Shown here in pieces: positions 15,288-50,484 of a stretch of DNA of 50,484 bases; the stretch's first letter is position 1; each line of letters opens with the position of its first letter. The notes under the pieces are model-generated. The model was given only the letters and a program-made list of their open reading frames with translations, was not told the DNA's origin and did no database searches. The DNA lies in assembly GCA_009886045.1 (NCBI GenBank), contig VFJO01000042.1, forward strand, positions 1 to 50,484, given 5' to 3'. The translations under genes were made by a program, and so were the position numbers. This DNA comes from Verrucomicrobiota bacterium (GTDB lineage: Bacteria > Verrucomicrobiota > Verrucomicrobiia > Chthoniobacterales > Terrimicrobiaceae).

Positions 15288-17632
15288 AAAAAACGATCTT
15301 TACTGTCATACATGCCCTGCTTCTTTGCGCCATGCCATTGGTTGCGCAAACTCCCCAGGTTTTACCACCTGGAGCACCCGTGACCCCGACCCTAGCTCCC
15401 CCATCCGAGCAGCGCTCTCAGGACTCGGTGAGCATTACATTTCCGCGCAACTCCGTGCTCGATGTCATTTCATTCTACGAAACACTCACTGGCAAGCGGA
15501 TCATTCGTGATTCCAACCTCGCTGGCCAAGAACTCTCGATCATGGTCGCCAAGCCAGTCAGCCGCGAGGATGCGATTGGGATTATTGAGAGTTCCCTGCT
15601 TATGAATAATTACAGCATCGTTCCGGTGGATGCTCAGACGATCAAAATCCTTGGCCCAAGCCGTGCTCCACGTACTGAAGGCCTTCCGCTTCTGAGCGAG
15701 ATCGAATCGCTCCCGAGAGATGGCGACAAGGTATTGAGCTTTTACAAACCGCTCGCATTTATTTCTCCAGAAGAGGCGATTGCCGTCGTTCAGGGCGTCG
15801 TTCAAATCAACGCCTATGGGTCGGTTGTCCCAGTGGCAAATACCAACGCCATCATCATCACAGACAAAACCCCAGTCATTCGCAAGGCCCTCGGTATTCT
15901 CGAGCTGATAGACGTGGAACCAGCCCGCGTCGTGACCGAGTTTGTGCAGCTTCAACGCGCCAATGCAGAGCGCGTCGTCGAAATGCTTGATGAGATGTTC
16001 GACAAGGACGACGCCGCAAAATCGAAGGGTACCAGTACTCAACCCCAAACGCAGGCCAACCCTCAGACACCCGAAAACCCACAGGCCGCTGGAGCAGCCT
16101 CGGGCGCGCGCTATGAAAACCGCCTGATCGCTGGTAAAGCAAAGTTCCTCGCCGATAAGCGCACCAACCGCATCCTCGTCGTAACGCGAGTCGAAAACTA
16201 CCGCTATGTGCGCGATGTGATCTCCCAACTCGATTCGGCAGGGAATTTTGAGCTGCCGTTCACGCGCATCCTAAATTATGTCCCTGTCAACGACGTCTTC
16301 CCCGTGCTTACCGACATGCTCAGCGATCCGGATTCCGAAAAACAGGGTGGCACTGGACAACAATCTCAGAATTCCTCCAACAACAATCAACTGAATCAAA
16401 ACAATAATAATAATTCCAACGGAGGTCTCGGCGGCAGCGGCAGCGGCGGTCTGAATCGATCCGACCGATTGAATGATGAAACCCAACAAGGAGCACCGCA
16501 ATCCGCTACAATCGGCGAAATCCGGCTCATTGCCGACAACAACTCAAATAGTATCATTGTTTTTGGTCCGCCCGAGAGCAAGCAGCGCGCAAAACAAATT
16601 CTCGATATCCTGGATCAGAGACCGAAACAGGTTTATCTCGCCGTCGTCATCGGCCAACTTCGCCTCAGCAAAGGAGTGGATTACGGTGTGAGCTATCTCA
16701 TCCGAAACAAGGGATTCCAACCCATCAACAATCTGCTTGGCAATAGCGATGCAAGTGGAGCGGCCGCGACGTCACTCAGCCCCACCCTCCTGCCAAGTAG
16801 TGTTTTTCCCAACGCCGCATCGATCGTGAATCCGGCTTCACTTGCGACCAATGGTCTCTCATCCCTCGCCGGCCTCACTATCTATGGAACGATTGCGGAT
16901 TCGGTTGATGTCTTCGCGCGCTTTCTTGAAAATACAGACCGCTTCAGAACGCTCTCCAGACCGGTCATCTACACAACTAACAACCGCAAGGCCACGATCC
17001 TCTCGGGTCAGAAGGTTCCCGTCCCAACGCAGTCGCTCACCACTGCCACCGGTGGAGGGATAGGCGGCAATGGCAGTGCGATCACCTCAAACATTCAATA
17101 CCAAGACGTCGTGTTAAAACTCGAAGTCATTCCACTCATCAACTCCGACCGCGAGGTGAACCTCATTATTGCTCAAACAAACGATAATGTTATTGGCACC
17201 GACACGATCTCCGGGAACAAAGTCCCTATCATTGCCACACAGGAAATCACCACCAGCGTGCGAGTGCCAAATGGTGCCACCATTGTTCTCGGAGGCCTGA
17301 TTTCCGAAGACAAGGAGCGTGGGGTGGAAGGCATGCCATACATCTCAGAAATCCCTGTACTCGGGTCACTCCTCGGCGGGCGTACTACATCGAAAGTGAA
17401 AAAGAACGAGCTCATTGTGATGATCCAGCCCTTCGTAGTGGATTCCAATCACGAGATGATGAAAGCCAGCGCCTATGAGGGCGACCGCTCACCTCTGGGG
17501 CGTGATGGGCAGGCAATGACCGCGCCAATCGCCGAGCAAAAAAGCCCCCCAGCCGTCTGGACTCCCACACCGGTCCCACCCGAGAAAAAGAAAAAATTCC
17601 GCTGGCCATGGAGCAATGATCAATACAACTGA
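15284..17632 (+). CDS. gspD: Type II secretion secretin GspD
   Basis: Signal peptide, N0-N3 repeats, secretin core VPNGATIVLGGLISEDKERGVEGMPYISEIPVLGSLLGG. Confidence 0.95.
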   Translation: MKKTIFTVIHALLLCAMPLVAQTPQVLPPGAPVTPTLAPPSEQRSQDSVSITFPRNSVLDVISFYETLTGKRIIRDSNLAGQELSIMVAKPVSREDAIGIIESSLLMNNYSIVPVDAQTIKILGPSRAPRTEGLPLLSEIESLPRDGDKVLSFYKPLAFISPEEAIAVVQGVVQINAYGSVVPVANTNAIIITDKTPVIRKALGILELIDVEPARVVTEFVQLQRANAERVVEMLDEMFDKDDAAKSKGTSTQPQTQANPQTPENPQAAGAASGARYENRLIAGKAKFLADKRTNRILVVTRVENYRYVRDVISQLDSAGNFELPFTRILNYVPVNDVFPVLTDMLSDPDSEKQGGTGQQSQNSSNNNQLNQNNNNNSNGGLGGSGSGGLNRSDRLNDETQQGAPQSATIGEIRLIADNNSNSIIVFGPPESKQRAKQILDILDQRPKQVYLAVVIGQLRLSKGVDYGVSYLIRNKGFQPINNLLGNSDASGAAATSLSPTLLPSSVFPNAASIVNPASLATNGLSSLAGLTIYGTIADSVDVFARFLENTDRFRTLSRPVIYTTNNRKATILSGQKVPVPTQSLTTATGGGIGGNGSAITSNIQYQDVVLKLEVIPLINSDREVNLIIAQTNDNVIGTDTISGNKVPIIATQEITTSVRVPNGATIVLGGLISEDKERGVEGMPYISEIPVLGSLLGGRTTSKVKKNELIVMIQPFVVDSNHEMMKASAYEGDRSPLGRDGQAMTAPIAEQKSPPAVWTPTPVPPEKKKKFRWPWSNDQYN

Positions 17633-37095: not shown

Positions 37096-37635
37096 TCAGT
37101 TTCTTAATGCCTGAGCACTTCCAGCAAATAGAGCTGCGAGATTTTCATCACTTACGACATCCTCGATCAGACCCAAATCCTTGAGGTCAGTTTCAAAAAG
37201 GCGTAAGCCAGATATTTCGGCGACGGGGAGCCACTCATTAAGGTGCCGCATGACAGTGCGAAGGTCGGTGTCGGCAGGATGTTCGTCTTCTACGCGAAGC
37301 CCGCTCTTGTACGTTGAGTGCAAACGCGTGCAGCGATGAATTGGCGGTTCGGGCATATCTGACAACTCGATCCATGCATCAGCACGAATCGTTCGCGTAT
37401 TTGCTGCAAGCCAAATGAGCAGGGCGCCGTCCGACAAGCATGTGTGCGAGTGAGCGTGGATATGCACATGCGGCGGGCGTTTGCGCAGAACCTCCAAGAG
37501 CATGAGCGCGGTATCGTGGAGCATCAATCCGGGGCCCAGCAGTTCGAGCGTTATTTTATCCATGCCATCCCCCAGAGCCGCATAGAGACTCGATAGCAAG
37601 ATTGAGGGATTTTTTTCAGCAAGATTGAGAAGCAT
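37096..37635 (-). CDS. Hypothetical protein with ClpP/crotonase-like fold signature
   Basis: HVHIHAHSHTCLSDGALLIWLAANTRTIRADAWIELSD resembles the ClpP 'aSaGalI...a..r.a..na.i..h' region; TAATG coupling with upstream LysM gene. Confidence 0.35.
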   Translation of the reverse strand: MLLNLAEKNPSILLSSLYAALGDGMDKITLELLGPGLMLHDTALMLLEVLRKRPPHVHIHAHSHTCLSDGALLIWLAANTRTIRADAWIELSDMPEPPIHRCTRLHSTYKSGLRVEDEHPADTDLRTVMRHLNEWLPVAEISGLRLFETDLKDLGLIEDVVSDENLAALFAGSAQALRN

Positions 37636-38459
37636 TAGAGAACGCAGGTTGTGTTCGACTTGCGTTCAGGCACTTTGAGTTTCTGGCCGATGCGCAATTG
37701 CCGTGGATCGGTGATGCCGTTGGCCTCCATGAGTTCGCTGTAGGAAACTTGGAGTCGGCGGGAGACGGCATAAAGATTATCGCCGCTGCTCAGCATGTAT
37801 TCGCTCGCTGGAGCCGTGCGCAGTGTCGCAGCCACGGGTTTTACCGGCTCTGGCAAAGCGATGTTTTCTGCAACGATTGGATAGGAAGTTGTGGACACTA
37901 GGATTCTTTCCTGAACCTCAGCATCCGCCTTCGGGCGAGACGCTGTGTTTTTTGTAGCCAGAAACTTCTCCTTGAGTATGGCTTTTTCGGGTTGGGAAGC
38001 AGGTGGAGATGCGGGAGGTTCTTTTGGTACAGCGACCACAACCGAGCTGGCAGGGATGGGTGTGGAAGGCACGCGCACGGCCGGTTTGGGAGCAATAGGT
38101 GCCGGTTTAGATGCCGTAGCAACCTTCTTCGGAGCGAGTGGCAGTGCTTTCACTTCAGGCGTTGCGTCTGGTTGAGGCCATTCGTTTCTCGCGAGCGCAT
38201 CGGACTTCGGCCCGTCGGGTATTGTCGTTGGCGTTTCCAATGCTGCAGTGGACTTGTTGGCCTTGGCCTTCAAGTTGCTCGAGGCATAGATGCCGCAGAG
38301 AAGAACCACATGGAAGCCAAGCACAATCAAGAAGGCCCACTTAAAAGAGAGACCTATCTTTGTGCAGCGGGCACGCAATGTGATTTTTTCGATTTGAGGC
38401 TCGAGATCGTCATCGATCCAGTTCGGATGGCGGGTTGGGTAGGATGGATATGTTTTCAT
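37635..38459 (-). CDS. Membrane-anchored LysM-domain protein
   Basis: One TM (FLIVLGFHVVLLCGIYASS), Pro/Ala-rich linker, C-terminal LysM YMLSSGDNLYAVSRRLQVSYSELMEANGITDPRQLRIGQKLKVP. Confidence 0.88.
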   Translation of the reverse strand: MKTYPSYPTRHPNWIDDDLEPQIEKITLRARCTKIGLSFKWAFLIVLGFHVVLLCGIYASSNLKAKANKSTAALETPTTIPDGPKSDALARNEWPQPDATPEVKALPLAPKKVATASKPAPIAPKPAVRVPSTPIPASSVVVAVPKEPPASPPASQPEKAILKEKFLATKNTASRPKADAEVQERILVSTTSYPIVAENIALPEPVKPVAATLRTAPASEYMLSSGDNLYAVSRRLQVSYSELMEANGITDPRQLRIGQKLKVPERKSNTTCVL

Positions 38460-38556
38460 CGCCCGTTGTATCCTTTAAAAATATAAGAAACGCAAATAGC
38501 AGGGGCCCTCAGATCCTTTTCTGGTCTTGTTTTCCGCCCATTCGTCCAGCGCACCC

Positions 38557-38593
38557 GACCGCTCGACCGGCGAAATCAACCGTTCGTTGAATT
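38557..38593. promoter_or_regulatory. Predicted LytTR-type binding site A (9-bp direct repeats, 21-bp spacing) upstream of LysM gene
   Basis: gACCGCTCGAccggcgaaatcaACCGTTCGTtgaatt; 33/37 identical to site B. Confidence 0.65.
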
Positions 38594-38610
38594 TGCAAAA
38601 TTTTCCGTTT

Positions 38611-39312
38611 TCAGACCGCCTTGAGTTCGCGGAATTCGGCGCTTTGCCTGCGCGATAGCTCAACTTTCACCCCGTTTGCCATCGTTAAGATCATAAAGCC
38701 TCCCTCGGCATCTTCGACATTTGCGATGTGGTCAAGATTCACCGCGTGGCTACGGCTGGCTAAGAAAAAGAGATTTCCATTGAGACGCTCGCGGACGCCT
38801 TTGAGCGTTCCATTCACGGTCACACCGTGCCCATCACCAAGCAGTAGTCTGGTATAGGAATCCGAGGCTTCCAACACTTGGATGTCGCCAACCCGGAGCA
38901 GCACATTTTTTACACCATCACGGAAGAGCGCCTTCTCATCGCTGGAGAAAGGCCGCTCCTCAGTAGGTTGGCAAACACGCGTGAGGCTTTCCTTCAAGCG
39001 GCGGGGATCCACAGGCTTCAGTAAATAATCCACCGCTCGCACCTCGAAGGCGCGAAGTGCATGGTCAGGATGCGCTGTAATAAAAATCGCCGGAATCCCT
39101 TCCGCAGGCAGCGTGTCGAGCAGGTCGAACCCCACCTTCCCACCACGCAACTCGACATCCAGCAGCAACACATCTGGCCGCTCTTCATTCAACGCCTTCA
39201 CGGCCTGATCAATCGTCCCGACATCCCGCACATCCGTCACCCCGATTTGGGCCAGCGCCTGTCTCATGCCCCGCCGTGCAGGCGGTTCGTCGTCGAGTAT
39301 CAGAACCTTCAT
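38611..39312 (-). CDS. LytTR-family (LytR/AlgR-type) response regulator
   Basis: Receiver LILDDEPPARRGM...LLLDVELRGGKVGFDLL...ITAHPDHALRAFEVRAVDYLLKPVDPRRL; LytTR LEASDSYTRLLLGDG...FFLASRSHAVNLDHIANV. Confidence 0.93.
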   Translation of the reverse strand: MKVLILDDEPPARRGMRQALAQIGVTDVRDVGTIDQAVKALNEERPDVLLLDVELRGGKVGFDLLDTLPAEGIPAIFITAHPDHALRAFEVRAVDYLLKPVDPRRLKESLTRVCQPTEERPFSSDEKALFRDGVKNVLLRVGDIQVLEASDSYTRLLLGDGHGVTVNGTLKGVRERLNGNLFFLASRSHAVNLDHIANVEDAEGGFMILTMANGVKVELSRRQSAEFRELKAV

Positions 39313-39384
39313 TTATGCGACCAAGGCACTCTTTCCATGGCCGTCTTGTCAAGTGTCATCCTTGGTTTTAAGGTTTCTTCAGTT

Positions 39385-39951
39385 ATGCGCAATAATTTGA
39401 CTCGTCTCGAAATTATCCATGTTCTCGTTGCACTCGACGCGGAATGCGAAAAGCGGGGCATAGCGGGCGAAATCTGCATATACGGTGGTGACGGGATGGT
39501 GCTTGTGTTCGATGCCCGTCAATCAACGAGAGATGTTGACGCTGTGTTCCGGCCCAAAGCCGAAATTCGGACAGCTGCCGAGGCTGTTGCCTCCGAGTTG
39601 GGTTTGCCGCTTGATTGGTTGAATAATGTTGTGAAGGGCTTTCTTTCCGAGACTGAGGAAATAAGAAGGGTTCCGGTCCCTGAATTGGAATCGTTGCAAA
39701 ATCTGCGCATCGTTTGGCCAACACCTGAATATCTTTTAGCGATGAAGTGTATGGCTGCCCGTTCCGATGACTCATCCATGGACAAGGAAGATGTTGTGTT
39801 TCTATTTCGCCGCCTTGATATCAAAAGTGAGGAGCAGGCTTTGGAGATTGTAGAGCGTTTTTTTCCGAAGGAGCGTATCCACATCAAAACGCATTATTTC
39901 ATTTCCGAAAATTTAGAGTTGTTGAAGCAATCGGAAGGAATCGAACCATGA
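39385..39951 (+). CDS. DUF6036/AbiEii-like nucleotidyltransferase family protein
   Basis: CIYGGDGMVLVFDARQSTRDVDAVF (nucleotidyltransferase G-G-x-DxD-like); PTPEYLLAMKCMAARSDDSSMDKEDVVFLFRRL. Confidence 0.75.
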   Translation: MRNNLTRLEIIHVLVALDAECEKRGIAGEICIYGGDGMVLVFDARQSTRDVDAVFRPKAEIRTAAEAVASELGLPLDWLNNVVKGFLSETEEIRRVPVPELESLQNLRIVWPTPEYLLAMKCMAARSDDSSMDKEDVVFLFRRLDIKSEEQALEIVERFFPKERIHIKTHYFISENLELLKQSEGIEP

Positions 39952-40334
39952 TTGCTGAACGCATTGCCAGTTTAGCAGAAGTTGCCCGAATCGCTTTGCA
40001 GGAAAGCTCCTTGAGCTTTGCTCTTCGGGACTTTCTGGATGGTTTCTATGCAGATGTTAACCTTCAGAAGCTCTCCGAGGAGCCACAGCATATTTCAGCG
40101 GCACTCGATGACAATGGCTTTGCGGATGCTTATCTGGCGGCCGTTTGTGATCATCTCTGCCGTCGTTACGCTTTGCCAAAGCCCGACTGGATTTTTGCGC
40201 CAGGTAGAATACTCCAGCGCCCCCATTTTGCGGCGAAAACTTATGGGTTGAGAATGGTACTGCTTCAAGAGTCACCGCCCGCTTTTCGTGAGCGCAATAT
40301 TTTTGTCAGTGCGAATGCGCTCTCACGCGCCTGA
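39948..40334 (+). CDS. Small partner protein of the nucleotidyltransferase module
   Basis: 4-bp overlap (ATGA) with upstream gene; conserved-looking C-terminus LLQESPPAFRERNIFVSANALSRA. Confidence 0.6.
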   Translation: MIAERIASLAEVARIALQESSLSFALRDFLDGFYADVNLQKLSEEPQHISAALDDNGFADAYLAAVCDHLCRRYALPKPDWIFAPGRILQRPHFAAKTYGLRMVLLQESPPAFRERNIFVSANALSRA

Positions 40335-40356
40335 CTTGAATTTTGCCATAGTTCGC

Positions 40357-41979
40357 TCAACCTCGCGCTGCCGTTTGCTTGATCCGCAGCAAAGCCTGCA
40401 CCATCCCCTCGGCGGGTTTGGAAAACTCCAGCCCGCTGCCTTCCGGGCAGCCATCAGCAATCCGTGCGCGCACGCTCGACAGGCCTACATTGTCTTTCCA
40501 GGCGGAGGGGTCTGTTTTTGGCGGCGCTGTATTACTGAGGTAAACAACTAGATCGCCAGCTTCCATGCGCGCATTGAGTTCCACCCTGCCAAAGCCATCA
40601 TCCACTCCATGCTTCACCGCGTTTTCCACGAGTGGTTGCAGCAGCATCGGCGGCAACAAAAATCCACCGGTATCGGCATCTGCACTGACGCTCCATTCCA
40701 GGCCTTCTTCGTAGCGCATTTTCTCCAAACGCAGAGTCTCGCGAATGATGTCCAGTTCCTCGGAAAACGGAATCAGCGCTTTCTTGGACAAGTCCAATGT
40801 TTTCCTCAAAAGCTGTGCCAGTGCGGTAACGCCGTCTTGGGCAGCGTCCCTGTCCGAGCAGATCAGGCCATGGATCGCATTGAGGCAATTGAAGAGAAAA
40901 TGCGGATTCACCTGGGCCTTGAGGCGCTCCAATTCCGCGGTCTTCTGTGCTGCCACAGCCTGCAGCACTTTCTCGCGCCGCTGGGACTCCGCGCCTGCCG
41001 CAATGAGGAGGCCCGTGGTGGCAACAATCGCGATGAATGCCTCGATTTGCCAGATCGTGCCAACCATGGAGCTCGAAACAAACGGCCCGCTGCCATGGCT
41101 CGTGAAGGCTGCGGCCGTGAAGACGATGAGAAGCACAGAGAGCGCGGCAGCAGGCAGCCCCCGACTCAGCGCGACCCAGACCAAAAAGGGAAAAGGCAAA
41201 TACGCCAGCGCCTGCATCGAGGCCGTTGCAGAGGGCTTCCCGTAAAAAGCCAACCACGCCGCGAGAAAGACGCAGGCCAGTTGGACGAGGCTCGCCGCCA
41301 CATCATGAAACCGCGTCGCCTTGGGCCAAAACCGCCCGCTCGCCATCAGCAAAACCACCGGTGCCACGACGACTGTTCCCGCTGTGTTCGTCGCCCAGTA
41401 GATACTCGCCACAGACCACAGGCCCACCGGCGGCATCATGCCGGAAATCACAAGGCAGCCCGCGCTCCAAAGCCCTGCCGCGCCCATGGGAATCGCCGCG
41501 CCGAGCCCCGCGAGCAGGAGCACATCCCGCGTCGATGAGAGCCGGATATCAAACCGCGACCTCGCCAGTAGAGCAACGCCTGCCCCCACGGCCACTGTCA
41601 TTCCCGCCGGAGCCAGAATTGTGAAGATCCACGGATTCCCAGCTCCAAGGCTGCTGAAAAAAAGCGGCAGAAAAATTCCCGGCAACACCTGCAGACCGAG
41701 CAGCAGAGCGAACGCCAGCGCCACACCGCCCGCTGGCCAAATCGGAGAAAACACCGCGTCGGCGTTTCCAAAAAGCTTCGCCGATCCCATGGCCGTCAAA
41801 TAAACCGCCGCCGCAACAGTCGCGTTCACCAAAATGACTTTGCCTACTTGCCTCAGTGGGGAAATGGCTGACACGCCGGATTGGTTAACCTCTTGCTCTG
41901 GCCATTGCAAATCCTCTTCGTTCACCATCGCCCCGTTGCTGCATCCCGTCGGAGTCGCAAAGCGCGCAGGTGGATTCAT
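40357..41979 (-). CDS. LytS-type sensor histidine kinase with N-terminal MASE1-like membrane domain
   Basis: 8-9 TM N-terminus (IWPAGGVALAFALLLG); LKAQVNPHFLFNCLNAIHGLI; LLQPLVENAVKHGV; NVGLSSVRARI. Confidence 0.9.
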   Translation of the reverse strand: MNPPARFATPTGCSNGAMVNEEDLQWPEQEVNQSGVSAISPLRQVGKVILVNATVAAAVYLTAMGSAKLFGNADAVFSPIWPAGGVALAFALLLGLQVLPGIFLPLFFSSLGAGNPWIFTILAPAGMTVAVGAGVALLARSRFDIRLSSTRDVLLLAGLGAAIPMGAAGLWSAGCLVISGMMPPVGLWSVASIYWATNTAGTVVVAPVVLLMASGRFWPKATRFHDVAASLVQLACVFLAAWLAFYGKPSATASMQALAYLPFPFLVWVALSRGLPAAALSVLLIVFTAAAFTSHGSGPFVSSSMVGTIWQIEAFIAIVATTGLLIAAGAESQRREKVLQAVAAQKTAELERLKAQVNPHFLFNCLNAIHGLICSDRDAAQDGVTALAQLLRKTLDLSKKALIPFSEELDIIRETLRLEKMRYEEGLEWSVSADADTGGFLLPPMLLQPLVENAVKHGVDDGFGRVELNARMEAGDLVVYLSNTAPPKTDPSAWKDNVGLSSVRARIADGCPEGSGLEFSKPAEGMVQALLRIKQTAARG

Positions 41980-42030
41980 ACTTCCTCCTTCTTCCTTCTA
42001 ACTTTTCTTTGCCACTCACCCCCACTTTTC

Positions 42031-42067
42031 GACCGCTCGACCAGCCAATTCAACCGCTCGTTGAATT
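42031..42067. promoter_or_regulatory. Predicted LytTR-type binding site B in the divergent kinase / LPP20-like intergenic region
   Basis: gACCGCTCGAccagccaattcaACCGCTCGTtgaatt; same 21-bp spacing as site A. Confidence 0.65.
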
Positions 42068-42111
42068 GCCTGTTTACGCGTAGGGATCGCTCTCATAATT
42101 TCGGCGCTGTT

Positions 42112-43146
42112 ATGAAAACCACCTCTCAACACCGCATCCTCATACCCGTCCTATCTGCTGCATTTGGCCTTCTTTTGCCATCCCTTGTGCAAGCTGCAGT
42201 CAAACCCACCGAAGAATCCGCTCCCAAGCTTCCTGAGATTTGGGTGAAGGCTGGTCCGCGCGAGCGTCTCAAGGCCACACGCGCCGCAGAGCTCGATGCC
42301 GACCGCCTCCTTGCCGAGCGCATCTATGGCCTCGAAGTCGATTCCGAGACCACGATCGCCGATCTCGCTGCAGGCGACGATAAGATCGACAGCGCGGTCT
42401 CTGCCACACTCGTTGGCTCCTTGACGACCGAGCCACCGGAATACCTCGCCGACGGCACTGTCCAAGTCGTCCGCGCCGTCAAAATCCGAGAAGTCATCAA
42501 CACACTCAACACCGCCATCAAAGGCAAGGTCCTCAAGGATGGCTCGGTTCAGACCTTGTCCAACAAGACCAAGACAAACACCGAGGTCAAAGACAGCGTC
42601 ATCGATGTGATGGGCAACGCCGCCCTGCCCGGCTCCGAGGGACACCAGAAAGTCATGGCCAAGCGCGCCGCCGAGCTCGATGCCTACCGCCGCCTGGCCG
42701 CCCGCATGTTGGGCATTCAAATCAACGGCAACACGACTGTCCGAGACATGGCTTTGGAAAATGACGAACTCGTGGCTGGGCTTTCGCATGTGCTCAAAGG
42801 GGCCGCGACCACGGCCATCAAATTCAACAAGGACGACGGATCTTGCGAAGTCACGATGGCGATCAAAACAGCCGATGTTCTCCGCACCGCCAAACGCATT
42901 GTTAAGGGCGAAAAAGTCACCACTACGATCAAAGATTCCATCGAGGAGAAAACCTTCTCCGAAACCGGCCGAGGCGCGATGCGTGAGGTCGCCCAAGGTG
43001 ACGCCCCCACCGAAGCAGCCACAGAGAGCGTTCCTACGAATCAGCCCACTATCGAAGCGGAAGTTAAAATCTCCGGCCGTGATCCATTTTTTGAAACCAC
43101 AGCCATCATCAAGGAAGTCGTCCAGAGCGGACCCGTGGTCCAGTGA
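42112..43146 (+). CDS. LPP20/FlgP-like secreted protein with two repeated domains
   Basis: Signal peptide; RLKATRAAELDADRLLAERIYGLEV and KVMAKRAAELDAYRRLAARMLGIQI repeats. Confidence 0.6.
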   Translation: MKTTSQHRILIPVLSAAFGLLLPSLVQAAVKPTEESAPKLPEIWVKAGPRERLKATRAAELDADRLLAERIYGLEVDSETTIADLAAGDDKIDSAVSATLVGSLTTEPPEYLADGTVQVVRAVKIREVINTLNTAIKGKVLKDGSVQTLSNKTKTNTEVKDSVIDVMGNAALPGSEGHQKVMAKRAAELDAYRRLAARMLGIQINGNTTVRDMALENDELVAGLSHVLKGAATTAIKFNKDDGSCEVTMAIKTADVLRTAKRIVKGEKVTTTIKDSIEEKTFSETGRGAMREVAQGDAPTEAATESVPTNQPTIEAEVKISGRDPFFETTAIIKEVVQSGPVVQ

Positions 43147-44272: not shown

Positions 44273-45391
44273 ATGAAACCATCACCACACTACCCCCTTC
44301 ATACTTCATACTTCCTACTTCTCACTTTAGTTTCTTCCTTCATACTTCTTACTTCTAACTTCTCCTTGGCGTCCGCCAAGGACGATCCTTTCAAAAAGCT
44401 CGCCAATAAACTCGGCAAGGAAGCGCCTGGTGAGAAGGTCAACATCGCCGTTGGCAGCTTCAACTATGAGAACACCGATCTCCAGTCGCCGTTCTCCTCC
44501 ATGCTCCGCGACGAGTTGGAGATCGCGCTCGGTGAATCCGGGAAATTCAAGGTCGTGACCCGTGACCGCCTGGCCGATCTCCAGATGGAAGGCAAATTCC
44601 AAGGCAAGGGCATCCTGGAGCCAGGAACTGGAGTTGAAAAAGTCACCATCGAAGGCGTGAAGGGCATCATCCGTGGGGGCTTCTGCGCCAGCGGCGACGA
44701 GGTCACCGTCTACGCCGAGTTGGCGTGGCTTGAAGGTGGCGAGATTAAGAAAGCCCGCATCGTCATCCCGGCTTCCCAAGTGCGCGCAAAAATCTGGCCA
44801 GATCCAGCCGATGCGGCAGCCCGGCCCATCGATGGCGTCATTAATCCCCAGAATGTCGAGCAAAGCCTCGCCAATGTGCAGGAGATCGCCAGAGACCGCC
44901 TCGCCAAAGTGCCGAGGGATTTTCCCATCGAGATTTTTACCGTGGACGGTCGCCGCGCCTATCCTGAAAAAGAAACCCTCTCGTTTCGCGTCCGCAGCGC
45001 GCGCGAGTGCCACATTGCCGTTCTCTGCCACCAGAGCGACGGCACCACCGTCGTCCTCTTTCCAAACCGCTTCTCAAGAAACACCCTCATTCCTGCGAAC
45101 AAAGCCATCGACATCCCAGGCACGCACAAGAGCGGATTCGAGATCGAGATCGGCCCGCCCTACGGCTCCGATGTCGTCGAGGTTATCGCCTGCTCCCAAC
45201 CCAGCGAACTCCACAAGGCGCTATCCAAATACGCCTCCGAAACAAGCGCCCCCGCTCCCTTCCAAGTCCTCACCCGAGGCATGGCTGTGAAAGGCATCGA
45301 CTCCGCCCTCGCCGCTGCCAAAGTCGGCTCCACCGCCGCCCTGCTTTGGTCCCAAGACTCCATCGTCATCAGCACCTTTCCGAAGCCATAA
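44273..45391 (+). CDS. CsgG/FlgO-like N-terminal domain plus C-terminal DUF4384-like domain, secreted
   Basis: KVNIAVGSFNYENTDLQSPFSSMLRDELEIALGESGKFKVVTRDRLADL; LSFRVRSARECHIAVLCHQSDGTTVVLFPNRFSRNTLIPANKAIDIP. Confidence 0.75.
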   Translation: MKPSPHYPLHTSYFLLLTLVSSFILLTSNFSLASAKDDPFKKLANKLGKEAPGEKVNIAVGSFNYENTDLQSPFSSMLRDELEIALGESGKFKVVTRDRLADLQMEGKFQGKGILEPGTGVEKVTIEGVKGIIRGGFCASGDEVTVYAELAWLEGGEIKKARIVIPASQVRAKIWPDPADAAARPIDGVINPQNVEQSLANVQEIARDRLAKVPRDFPIEIFTVDGRRAYPEKETLSFRVRSARECHIAVLCHQSDGTTVVLFPNRFSRNTLIPANKAIDIPGTHKSGFEIEIGPPYGSDVVEVIACSQPSELHKALSKYASETSAPAPFQVLTRGMAVKGIDSALAAAKVGSTAALLWSQDSIVISTFPKP

Positions 45392-45426: not shown

Positions 45427-45708
45427 GTGTCATCCATCATCCTCTTTGAAGAAAAAACAGTCCGCCGCGCTTGGGATGCCGAGAATCAGAAATGGCTCTT
45501 CGCCATTGTTGATGTCTTGGCAATTCTCACGGGAAGCATTGATCCCGGTGCGTATTGGAGAAAGCTCAAAGAGCGACTGAAAAAAGAAGGCAACCAAACC
45601 GTGACAAACTGTCACGCCTTGAAAATGACTGCTGCTGACGGCAAGCACTGCACTCAACCCCGCTTAGGAATGAGAAATCGAGTTTATCAAGTTTATCATG
45701 AAAAATAA
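45427..45708 (+). pseudogene. Truncated BRO-N-domain protein remnant
   Basis: LFEEKTVRRAWDAENQKWLFAIVDVLAILTGSIDPGAYWRKLKERLKKEGNQTVTNCHALKMTAADGK matches the BRO-N start; then unrelated tail CTQPRLGMRNRVYQVYHEK. Confidence 0.6.
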
Positions 45709-46888
45709 TTCCTCGCGGCAACCGGCTATTGTCGGCCAGAGCGTCCTTACATCCCAGGAATACCGCGATTTTATCGCCGATCTAAAGTCTCGTATCCAGT
45801 CCGCGCGGATTTCAGCGGCCCGCGCGCTGAATTCCGAGGCCATTCTTCTCTACTGGGATATTGGCCAAGGCATCGTAGAAAGGCAGCGCTCGCTCGCTTG
45901 GGGAGAGTCGGTAGTCGAGTTGGTCTCGGCCGACCTTCGCCGGGAATTTCCTCAAGCCACCGGCTTCTCGGCAAGGAGTGTCTGGGACATGCGAAGATTC
46001 TATCTTTTCTACACCGACGCACATTTTCTGGATGAAGCCGCTCGGGAAATTTCCAAGATTCTCAAAAATCCCGGTCTGCGGCAGCTTGTCGCAGAAATCC
46101 CGAATCCACCCCGGCAGATTGCGTCCTCCGATGCTGCCATTACATTTCTGCGACGACTCGTCGCAGAAATTCCTTGGGGCCAAAACTTGGTTATCCTCAA
46201 CAAGGTGCCCACGCCCCTCGCGAGTCTTTGGTATCTTCAAGCCACAGCCCGCTTCGGATGGACTCGAAATGTTTTGCTCAACCAGATCAAGGCCGGCGCT
46301 TACGAACGCGCGGTCGCCGATAAAAAGTCCCACAACTTCGGCCTCTCCCTCCCCGCACACCTCGCCGAGCAGGCTGAGGAAATGCTCAAGAGTTCCTACA
46401 ACCTCGAGTTCCTCGGAATCCGCCGCGCCGTGAAGGAACGCGAACTGGAAGACCGCTTGATCTCGCGCCTCCAAGCCTTCCTCATGGAATTAGGCTACGG
46501 CTTCTGCTTCGTAGGTCGCCAATACCGCATCGCAGTCGGCAAGAAAGAATACTTCATCGACCTCCTCTTTTACCACCGGTTCCTCAAAGCTCTCGTTGCA
46601 TTCGACTTGAAGGTCGGCCCTTTCGAGCCCGAATTCGCCGGAAAGATGGATTTTTACCTCACCATCCTCGATGAAAAAGAGCGCGCCCCCTGTGACCAAC
46701 CCTCAATCGGAATTATCCTCTGTGCCGAGAAAGACGACATCGAAGTCGAGTATGCCCTCCGCACCAAGTCCAATGCCATCGGCGTGGCCACCTACGAACT
46801 CCAGTCGAAACTCCCAGGAGAATTCAAAGGAAAACTCCCCACGCAGAAACAACTCGCCGACCTCGTCCGCGCGGAATATCGAAATTGA
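45698..46888 (+). CDS. YhcG/DUF1016-family PDDEXK nuclease
   Basis: ILLYWDIGQGIVERQ, FSARSVWDMRRFY, FIDLLFYHRFLKALVAFDLKVGPFEPEFAGKMDFYL, PSIGIILCAEKDDIEVEYAL. Confidence 0.92.
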   Translation: MKNNSSRQPAIVGQSVLTSQEYRDFIADLKSRIQSARISAARALNSEAILLYWDIGQGIVERQRSLAWGESVVELVSADLRREFPQATGFSARSVWDMRRFYLFYTDAHFLDEAAREISKILKNPGLRQLVAEIPNPPRQIASSDAAITFLRRLVAEIPWGQNLVILNKVPTPLASLWYLQATARFGWTRNVLLNQIKAGAYERAVADKKSHNFGLSLPAHLAEQAEEMLKSSYNLEFLGIRRAVKERELEDRLISRLQAFLMELGYGFCFVGRQYRIAVGKKEYFIDLLFYHRFLKALVAFDLKVGPFEPEFAGKMDFYLTILDEKERAPCDQPSIGIILCAEKDDIEVEYALRTKSNAIGVATYELQSKLPGEFKGKLPTQKQLADLVRAEYRN

Positions 46889-46908
46889 AGCAATCCAAAA
46901 AAATCAAG

Positions 46909-48489
46909 ATGTTCGCAATAAATAACTTCTTCCTTCTGACTTTTTCCTTCCTTTTCTCCGCCGCTCTCCACGCCTCGCCGCCGAAGGAGGCTCTGTTAAT
47001 TGCGAACGGGAAATACTCGCACTTCGCGGGCTTAGCGCACCCAAGCCCTGATGCAGCAAAGTTAAGCGCGGCACTGGAGCAACTCGGCTTCCGCGTGCGC
47101 GTGGTGCGCGATGGGAACCGCGAGCAGATGATCGACGCCATCGCAGAGTTTGAGCGCGGGCTACGCAATACCGACGCGATTGCATTTTTTCACTACGGGG
47201 GACACGGCGTTCAAGTGGATGGCAAAAACTATCTTCTTCCGGCGGATGCCGACATTCCCGACGAGCGGCGAGTCGCCACGCGGGCTGTGGCGCTCGATGA
47301 AGTGATGACGGCGATGGATGCCGCCGCAGCGCGGGCGAGCATTATTGTGATCGATGCGTGCCGCGACAACCCGCTGCCTGCCGGAAGCGGTCGCAATCTC
47401 GCGCGTGGTCTCTCGGTGGTGGGAATGAAGCCAAAAAATTCCATCGTCATCTACGCGGCGGAAGCAGGAAGCAAGGCGCTGGATGGGCTTTTCACGCCGA
47501 TTTTGGCCGTGGCTCTGCAACAAAAAGGACGGACGATCGACCAAGTGATGAAAATCGTGCGCAGCGAGGTGTATGCGAAGTCGAGCGGCCAGCAGACGCC
47601 TGGGGAATACAATCAGCTGTTTGAGGAGTTGATCTTGGGTGAATTGGCAGGAGTGGATTTAACGCCAGAGACGGCCTTTGCGGCGAAGCCAGCTGGGACT
47701 CCGTATGCCGCGCCAACTTCCGCTTCGCTCACGACGGACGACATGGTGCTTGTGGAGGGTGGCACGCTGCCGGATGAGTCGGATTTAGCAGGGAAGTCGG
47801 TCCAGTCATTCTACATCGGCCGCACGGAGGTGACATGGCTGGAGTGGAAGAAAGTGAAAAATTGGGCGGCAGACAACGGCTATGACATCGGGAATGTAGG
47901 CGAGGGCAGCGGGAACGTTCATCCGGTGCAAAATGTAAATTGGTATGATTGCGTGAAGTGGTGTAATGCGCGGAGTGAGTTGGCAGGATTGACGCCAGTC
48001 TACCAAGTCAAGGGCAAGGTGTATAGGAGCGGAGAGTATGGAGATATGGGTTCGGGCGTGGTAATGCCAATTTCAAGCGCGAACGGATATCGACTGCCGA
48101 GCCAGACAGAATGGGAGTGGGCCGCGCGAGGTGGAGTAGAAAGCCGTGGATACAAGTATAGCGGGAGCGATGATCTGAATGCGGTGGCGTGGTATAGTTT
48201 GAACTCAAGTGGAGCAGAAGTGGAATTGGGAAGCAGGGTATCAAAGAATTTGTTCGGTGGCGGGACATTTCCGGTTGCACAAAAAGGAAGAAACGAACTC
48301 GATCTGCGAGACATGAGCGGGAATGTTTGGGAGTGGTGTTGGGACAGCAATGGTCCCAACCGCCACGTCCGCGGGGGCAGTTGGAACTTTCATGCGAACT
48401 ACTGCACTGTTGCTTACAGATACGACAGCCACTCCCCAGACGCTCGTAACTACTACATCGGCTTCCGTCTGGCCCGAAATCTGAATTAG
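46909..48489 (+). CDS. Secreted caspase-like (C14) peptidase fused to formylglycine-generating-enzyme (SUMF1/FGE-sulfatase) domain
   Basis: Signal peptide; catalytic HYGGHG and DACRDNP; FGE motifs VNWYDCVKWCNARS, YRLPSQTEWEWAARGG, DMSGNVWEWCWD, HVRGGSWN...IGFRLAR. Confidence 0.93.
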   Translation: MFAINNFFLLTFSFLFSAALHASPPKEALLIANGKYSHFAGLAHPSPDAAKLSAALEQLGFRVRVVRDGNREQMIDAIAEFERGLRNTDAIAFFHYGGHGVQVDGKNYLLPADADIPDERRVATRAVALDEVMTAMDAAAARASIIVIDACRDNPLPAGSGRNLARGLSVVGMKPKNSIVIYAAEAGSKALDGLFTPILAVALQQKGRTIDQVMKIVRSEVYAKSSGQQTPGEYNQLFEELILGELAGVDLTPETAFAAKPAGTPYAAPTSASLTTDDMVLVEGGTLPDESDLAGKSVQSFYIGRTEVTWLEWKKVKNWAADNGYDIGNVGEGSGNVHPVQNVNWYDCVKWCNARSELAGLTPVYQVKGKVYRSGEYGDMGSGVVMPISSANGYRLPSQTEWEWAARGGVESRGYKYSGSDDLNAVAWYSLNSSGAEVELGSRVSKNLFGGGTFPVAQKGRNELDLRDMSGNVWEWCWDSNGPNRHVRGGSWNFHANYCTVAYRYDSHSPDARNYYIGFRLARNLN

Positions 48490-49956: not shown

Positions 49957-50484
49957 ATGTTCCGCCGCATAGCATTTTTTTTAGCTTTTTTGGTCTTTTC
50001 GGCTGCTCTTCACGCCGCGCAGCCGAAGGAGGCCTTGCTGATTGCCAACGGGAAATACTCGCACTTTGCGGGGTTGGCGAATCCAGGCCCTGATGCGGCA
50101 AAATTAAGCGCGGCGCTGGAGCAACTCGGATTCCGCGTGCGTGTGGTGCGCGATGGGAACCGCGAGCAGATGCTCGACGCCATCGCAGAGTTTGAGCGAG
50201 GGCTGCGCAATACGGACGCGATTGCGTTTTTCCATTACGGGGGACACGGCGTTCAAGTGGATGGGAAAAACTACCTCCTCCCGGCGGATGCCGACATTCC
50301 GGATGAGCGGCGGGTGGCGACGCGTGCGGTGGCTTTGGATGAAGTGATGACGGCGATGGATGCCGCCGCAGCCCGAGCGAGCATTATTGTGATCGACGCT
50401 TGCCGCGACAACCCCCTGCCTGCGGGAAGTGGGCGGAACCTCGCGCGGGGCCTCTCGGTGGTGGGGATGAAGCCGAAAAACTCC
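49957..50484 (+). CDS. Second caspase-like peptidase, truncated by window end (absent from ORF track because no stop in window)
   Basis: MFRRIAFFLAFLVFSAALHAAQPKEALLIANGKYSHFAGLANPGPDAAKL...HYGGHG...DACRDNPLPAGSG...; near-identical to the 46909 gene. Confidence 0.92.
   Translation, partial: MFRRIAFFLAFLVFSAALHAAQPKEALLIANGKYSHFAGLANPGPDAAKLSAALEQLGFRVRVVRDGNREQMLDAIAEFERGLRNTDAIAFFHYGGHGVQVDGKNYLLPADADIPDERRVATRAVALDEVMTAMDAAAARASIIVIDACRDNPLPAGSGRNLARGLSVVGMKPKNS

Follow-up and report, generated by a model that had tools for sequence, protein, structure and literature searches.

Three-unit direct-repeat arrays with a BtsR-like code point to a probable envelope regulon of a LytTR two-component system in freshwater Verrucomicrobiota

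The window, by which we mean the whole stretch of 50,484 nucleotides that was analysed, carries a two-component locus flanked by genes for LysM-domain and LPP20-like proteins. The response regulator gene (38611-39312, minus strand) encodes a receiver domain (PF00072, 2.2e-20, 73.3 bits) and a LytTR domain (PF04397, 9.1e-15, 55.1 bits), both above the curated cut-offs, and its product is the proposed binder of the arrays described below. The sensor histidine kinase proposed as its partner (40357-41979, minus strand) has a MASE1 sensor and a His_kinase core (PF06580) containing NPHFLFN, as found in kinases of the LytS/YehU (BtsS) type. The kinase and regulator genes adjoin in the relative G013, and in the genome of the window (G000) as well as in G012 and G002 a pair of small genes read in the opposite direction (39385-40334 in the window), absent from G013, lies between them; this pair comprises a weak match to the DUF6036 nucleotidyltransferases and a 128 amino acid protein. 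On the other side of the regulator lies a gene for a LysM-domain protein with an N-terminal membrane segment (37635-38459, minus strand; PF01476, 3.4e-12), which would be the first gene of one target of the regulator, and overlapping it is a gene for a 179 amino acid protein (37096-37635, minus strand), predicted to belong to the same operon. An earlier reading of this DNA, made without database searches (the sequence-only reading), had labelled this second protein ClpP-like, which was not confirmed, the protein having no Pfam match. Beyond the kinase, on the plus strand, are an LPP20-like exported protein (42112-43146; its PF02169 match is weak, with E 0.034, and below the cut-off), predicted as the first gene of a second target, a downstream protein with CsgG and DUF4384 domains (44273-45391) and, at the end of the LPP20 locus and only putatively co-regulated with it, a protein with a Peptidase_C14 caspase domain (46885-48489). 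An FGE-sulfatase domain was also noted in the latter, which is the first of a near-identical tandem pair of caspase-domain genes, the second of which (49957-50484) runs off the window, and a gene for a YhcG-type (DUF1016/PDDEXK) nuclease (45698-46888) lies within the same region.

Two stretches of 37 nucleotides at 38557-38593 and 42031-42067 are identical at 33 of 37 positions, as had been noticed from the letters alone. Each had been described as two 9-mers 21 bp apart and this pair is exact, but each site really has three units, since a third, weaker one lies 21 bp upstream of each pair, so that arrays A and B both consist of three units with the consensus RCCRYTCR at a 21-bp pitch. Array A (38537-38586, plus strand) is made up of CCCATTCG at 38537-38544, ACCGCTCG at 38558-38565 and ACCGTTCG at 38579-38586, and array B (42011-42060, plus strand) of GCCACTCA at 42011-42018 and of ACCGCTCG at both 42032-42039 and 42053-42060. 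Array A is found 77 bp before the start codon of the LysM gene (38459, minus strand) and is reversed relative to that gene; array B is found 51 bp before the start of the LPP20-like gene (42112, plus strand), with which it shares its orientation, while 31 bp separate it from the start of the kinase gene. The sequence-only reading had missed the third unit, a third operon (see below), the closer likeness of the code to that of BtsR than to that of AlgR, and the fact that the two sites face opposite ways with respect to their genes. The LytTR consensus [TA][AC][CA]GTTN[AG][TG] is matched in full by just one of the four 9-mers, ACCGTTCGT; the ACCGCTCGN units miss the consensus by having C instead of T at position 5.

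The pattern ACCGYTCGW-N12-ACCGYTCGT was matched twice in the window and not at all in 100 shuffles, and the genome-wide scan suggested earlier, now carried out on the draft genome of 3,517,976 bp, gave just these two exact sites and one degenerate array on contig C259, with no match to a reversed control pattern. When exact ACCGYTCG pairs were sought in the 3.52 Mb at spacings from N8 to N19 they were obtained only at N13 (two exact pairs and none with one mismatch), N8-N12 and N14-N19 giving none. A matrix was built from 18 arrays of the genus, those of LysM and some of those of LPP20, and stretches of 220 bp preceding genes were scored with it. In G000 the matrix found three arrays above 30 bits, namely array A (30.8 bits), array B (31.7 bits, the top array of the genome) and C259:5029-5078, and the next best match, at 22 bits, was within the range given by 13 other spacings (24.2 bits at most). 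Pairs on C206, C208 and C243 and the 22-bit triple on C108 were rejected as extra sites, being at noise level compared with the control spacings. The array on C259 precedes an operon encoding a 120 amino acid exported protein, a 123 amino acid IceA2/PQQ-like protein, a TPR lipoprotein and a CsgG-PEGA protein; an LprI-like gene lies nearby.

Phylogenetic footprinting, also suggested in the sequence-only reading, was carried out with 16 further species-level genomes from the genus, and neither it nor the genome-wide scan refuted that reading. Arrays again preceded the LysM and LPP20 orthologues, with inter-unit spacers that have diverged; in all of them the direct repeats, about 8-9 bp long, stand N13 apart, except that G016 and G003 once show a pitch of 20 bp. 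The best regulator orthologues were from metagenome-assembled genomes of Spartobacteria, Terrimicrobiaceae and Verrucomicrobia, several of them lake-named. An array stood upstream of the LysM orthologue in all 10 genomes possessing one (29.4-33.4 bits), before LPP20-like genes at 10 promoters in 8 genomes (21.7-33.4 bits; beside these, G005 has a further array at a neighbouring gene lacking identification) and before the third operon in 9/9 genomes (25.0-32.8 bits), which supports the earlier naming of the LysM and LPP20-like genes as targets. Nine third-operon and five LPP20 arrays were outside the training set and thus provide an independent test of the matrix. None of 12 control upstream regions contained an array, all scoring below 0 bits (four of the regulator, three of CsgG and five of kinases without an LPP20 neighbour), so that the CsgG gene has no array of its own. 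In 10 genomes of other genera of the same family no array was found with up to one mismatch. A single match in G040 (L006) was isolated, with no regulator context seen, and was treated as chance, and matches on C32 of G003 (16182-16301) were discarded as a perfect tandem repeat of the heptamer GCCACTC, unrelated to the operator.

The B site has, around CGCTC, a perfect inverted repeat of 8 bp (AATTCAACCGCTCGTTGAATT), and TTGAA often follows the last unit of an array, as might be expected if the conserved piece were a palindromic site for a factor other than a LytTR protein, or belonged to a dispersed repeat family. The palindrome reading of the last unit was rejected, as the palindrome is lost in relatives (for example ATTTATCCGCCCATTGAAAA in G003) while the 21-bp direct units are kept, and a dispersed family was rejected because the 3.5 Mb hold no more than three arrays, each of them preceding genes; we therefore hold this whole class of explanation to be very improbable. 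With their repeat size and spacing, and their conserved placement at regulator-linked genes, the three-unit arrays would instead qualify as direct-repeat LytTR operators.

As array B lies between divergent genes, either could be served by it. The LPP20 gene retains its array in G007 and G012, where the kinase is not adjacent and another gene lies upstream, and this together with the five array-less kinases leads us to read array B as the operator of the LPP20 promoter. Autoregulation of the kinase through array B, which had been predicted, thus gains no support from the pattern of conservation, and co-regulation of the divergent kinase from array B in G000 is possible but likewise unsupported.

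G000 encodes three LytTR proteins, and the arrays might be bound by one of the other two, encoded on contigs C219 and C187, rather than by the regulator at 38611-39312; that three array-bearing draft genomes (G006, G007 and G009) gave no LytTR gene counts in favour of this and against the neighbouring regulator as the binder. However, array A adjoins the regulator gene in every genome having both on one contig, and there is no array near the LytTR genes of C219 or C187. Furthermore, G004 and G014 (93% and 95% complete) each encode another LytTR protein yet lack arrays, along with the regulator, the kinase, LPP20, the third operon and a close LysM orthologue, and only the regulator at 38611-39312, among the LytTR proteins of the genome, has a C-terminal SRR loop in common with BtsR. 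Binding by another LytTR protein is consequently considered improbable. The missing LytTR genes of the three drafts may be due to draft incompleteness. G006, however, at 97% completeness, has a weak LPP20 array (24.8 bits), and before the TPR gene of its third operon none was found, as might be expected if this genome has lost the regulator.

We take the unit bound by E. coli BtsR to be ACC[GA]CT[CT]A, with N13 between units, and all four of the 9-mers fit this better than they do the LytTR consensus, the last base here being A or G; with this unit and spacing the arrays would class as operators of BtsR type. Applied to the E. coli btsT promoter, the matrix gave a best match of 18.3 bits against 3.4 for the runner-up, a score reached in one of 1,500 dinucleotide shuffles, and this match, ACCGCTTA-N13-ACCACTCA, located 164 bp before the start codon on the coding strand, corresponds to the BtsR consensus site. 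The BtsR (YehT) operator at btsT (yjiY) thus has both the RCCRYTCR code and the N13 spacing in common with the arrays, and since a further BtsR-like unit, GCCGCTCA, precedes the pair by 20 bp (L193) it may also be a three-unit operator. BtsR is 31% identical to the regulator, and BtsS is 34% identical to the core of the kinase, to which the similarity is confined. The sensors differ, being a seven-transmembrane pyruvate receptor in BtsS and MASE1 here, as do the targets, a pyruvate transporter in E. coli and predicted envelope proteins here, and, unlike in the BtsR system, some arrays are forward and others reversed with respect to their genes.

Operators of three units are already known in kind, because those of RcoM1 and CoxC also have three direct repeats at a two-helical-turn spacing (18-21 bp), recognised by the LytTR domain (PMC11347149), although their unit (TTNNNGCN / TTCNNGCA) differs and they are one-component CO sensors, unlike the system here. 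The sequence-only reading had drawn a comparison with AlgR of Pseudomonas aeruginosa (site CCGTTCGTC), which is sound in that CCGTTCGT is common to the last unit of array A, amounting to 8 of the 9 AlgR core letters, and in that AlgR sites too occur in both orientations (PMC4064291). AlgR was nevertheless rejected as the closest code, as fewer units fit it than fit BtsR, and direct repeats 12 bp apart are not obligatory in AlgR sites (PMC4064291) whereas the direct repeats here keep to a 21-bp pitch almost without exception. AgrA, VirR and PlnC bind a pair of direct repeats that are spaced by about 12 bp and precede the promoter, the agr sites being centred near -60 (PMC4227749, PMC4064291), with a unit sequence different from that of the arrays. 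The regulator lacks the FxRxHrS motif, having FLASRSHAVN in G000 and replacements of the R and H in orthologues too; these two residues are reported as essential for DNA binding by VirR in the title of a study cited in PMC4227749, and with them missing the base contacts of the regulator may differ from those of AgrA and VirR. A search of the PDB for LytTR-DNA complexes gave no informative template.

The distance from array to promoter-like sequence is strict. Reversed arrays are followed, in gene orientation, by a TTTG[AC] box at 40-41 bp in 18/18 promoters (10/10 LysM and 8/8 third-operon), and forward LPP20 arrays by TTTAC[GT] at exactly 12 bp in seven of the 10 tabulated promoters, with a -10-like hexamer 17 bp beyond the -35-like box. 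The putative LysM core promoter (38468-38496, minus strand) would consist of TTTGCG (38496-38491), N17 and GGATAC (38473-38468), its box being 40 bp from array A, and the putative LPP20 core promoter (42073-42101, plus strand) of TTTACG (42073-42078), N17 and TAATTT (42096-42101), 12 bp from array B. The start codon closely follows the -10 box, which suggests short leaders.

Such geometry bears on whether the arrays activate or repress. CoxC represses PcoxB through three direct repeats lying over the -35 box (PMC11347149), so three-repeat LytTR operators can serve repression, and array B ends just 12 bp before its -35-like box; the regulator might then mainly block promoters. Against this, no array overlaps a proposed -35 box, the gap being 12 or 40 bp; the -10 boxes are poor ones, such as activated promoters have; and the majority of LytTR regulators act as activators from sites upstream of -35 (PMC11347149). 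Repression as the main effect is therefore unlikely, though less so than binding by a different LytTR protein.

Taken on sequence evidence, it is highly probable that the arrays are BtsR-type LytTR operators of the regulator at 38611-39312, through which it would probably activate an envelope regulon. In such a scheme the MASE1 kinase would phosphorylate the regulator, which would then bind the three direct RCCRYTCR repeats, at two-helical-turn spacing and by the BtsR code, and activate promoters whose -10 boxes are weak and whose -35 box, TTTGM or TTTAC, stands at a constant distance from the array. Its regulon would comprise the LysM gene with that of the 179 amino acid protein, the LPP20-like gene (perhaps with CsgG/DUF4384) and the C259 operon of small exported, IceA2-like, TPR lipoprotein and CsgG-PEGA proteins. 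A simple activator model leaves it unexplained that the arrays of two of the three target classes are reversed relative to their genes. A broader proposal, to which we give somewhat better than even chances, is that an undescribed envelope regulon in uncultured freshwater Verrucomicrobiota is controlled by a LytTR regulator whose code is BtsR-like, through obligatory three-unit operators in two fixed geometries (forward at 12 bp and inverted at 40 bp from -35); if true, the two geometries imply two modes of activation by one LytTR protein. The envelope regulon predicted in this proposal spans LysM, LPP20-like/CsgG/caspase-linked and CsgG-PEGA/TPR lipoprotein genes, and LPP20-like, CsgG-type and LysM proteins would gain a common signal. 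No LytTR regulon in Verrucomicrobiota is evident from the titles and abstracts of nine papers naming both. As the three-part site recurs before the same three gene groups across the genus, the predicted regulon can be read from genomes, with a recognition code in common with E. coli BtsR across phyla, and the strict array-to-box geometry makes it amenable to reporter testing. In one relative, G010, the LysM array is duplicated, and its two copies (L076, 11103 and 12212), both lying between the regulator gene and that of LysM, are some 1.1 kb from each other.
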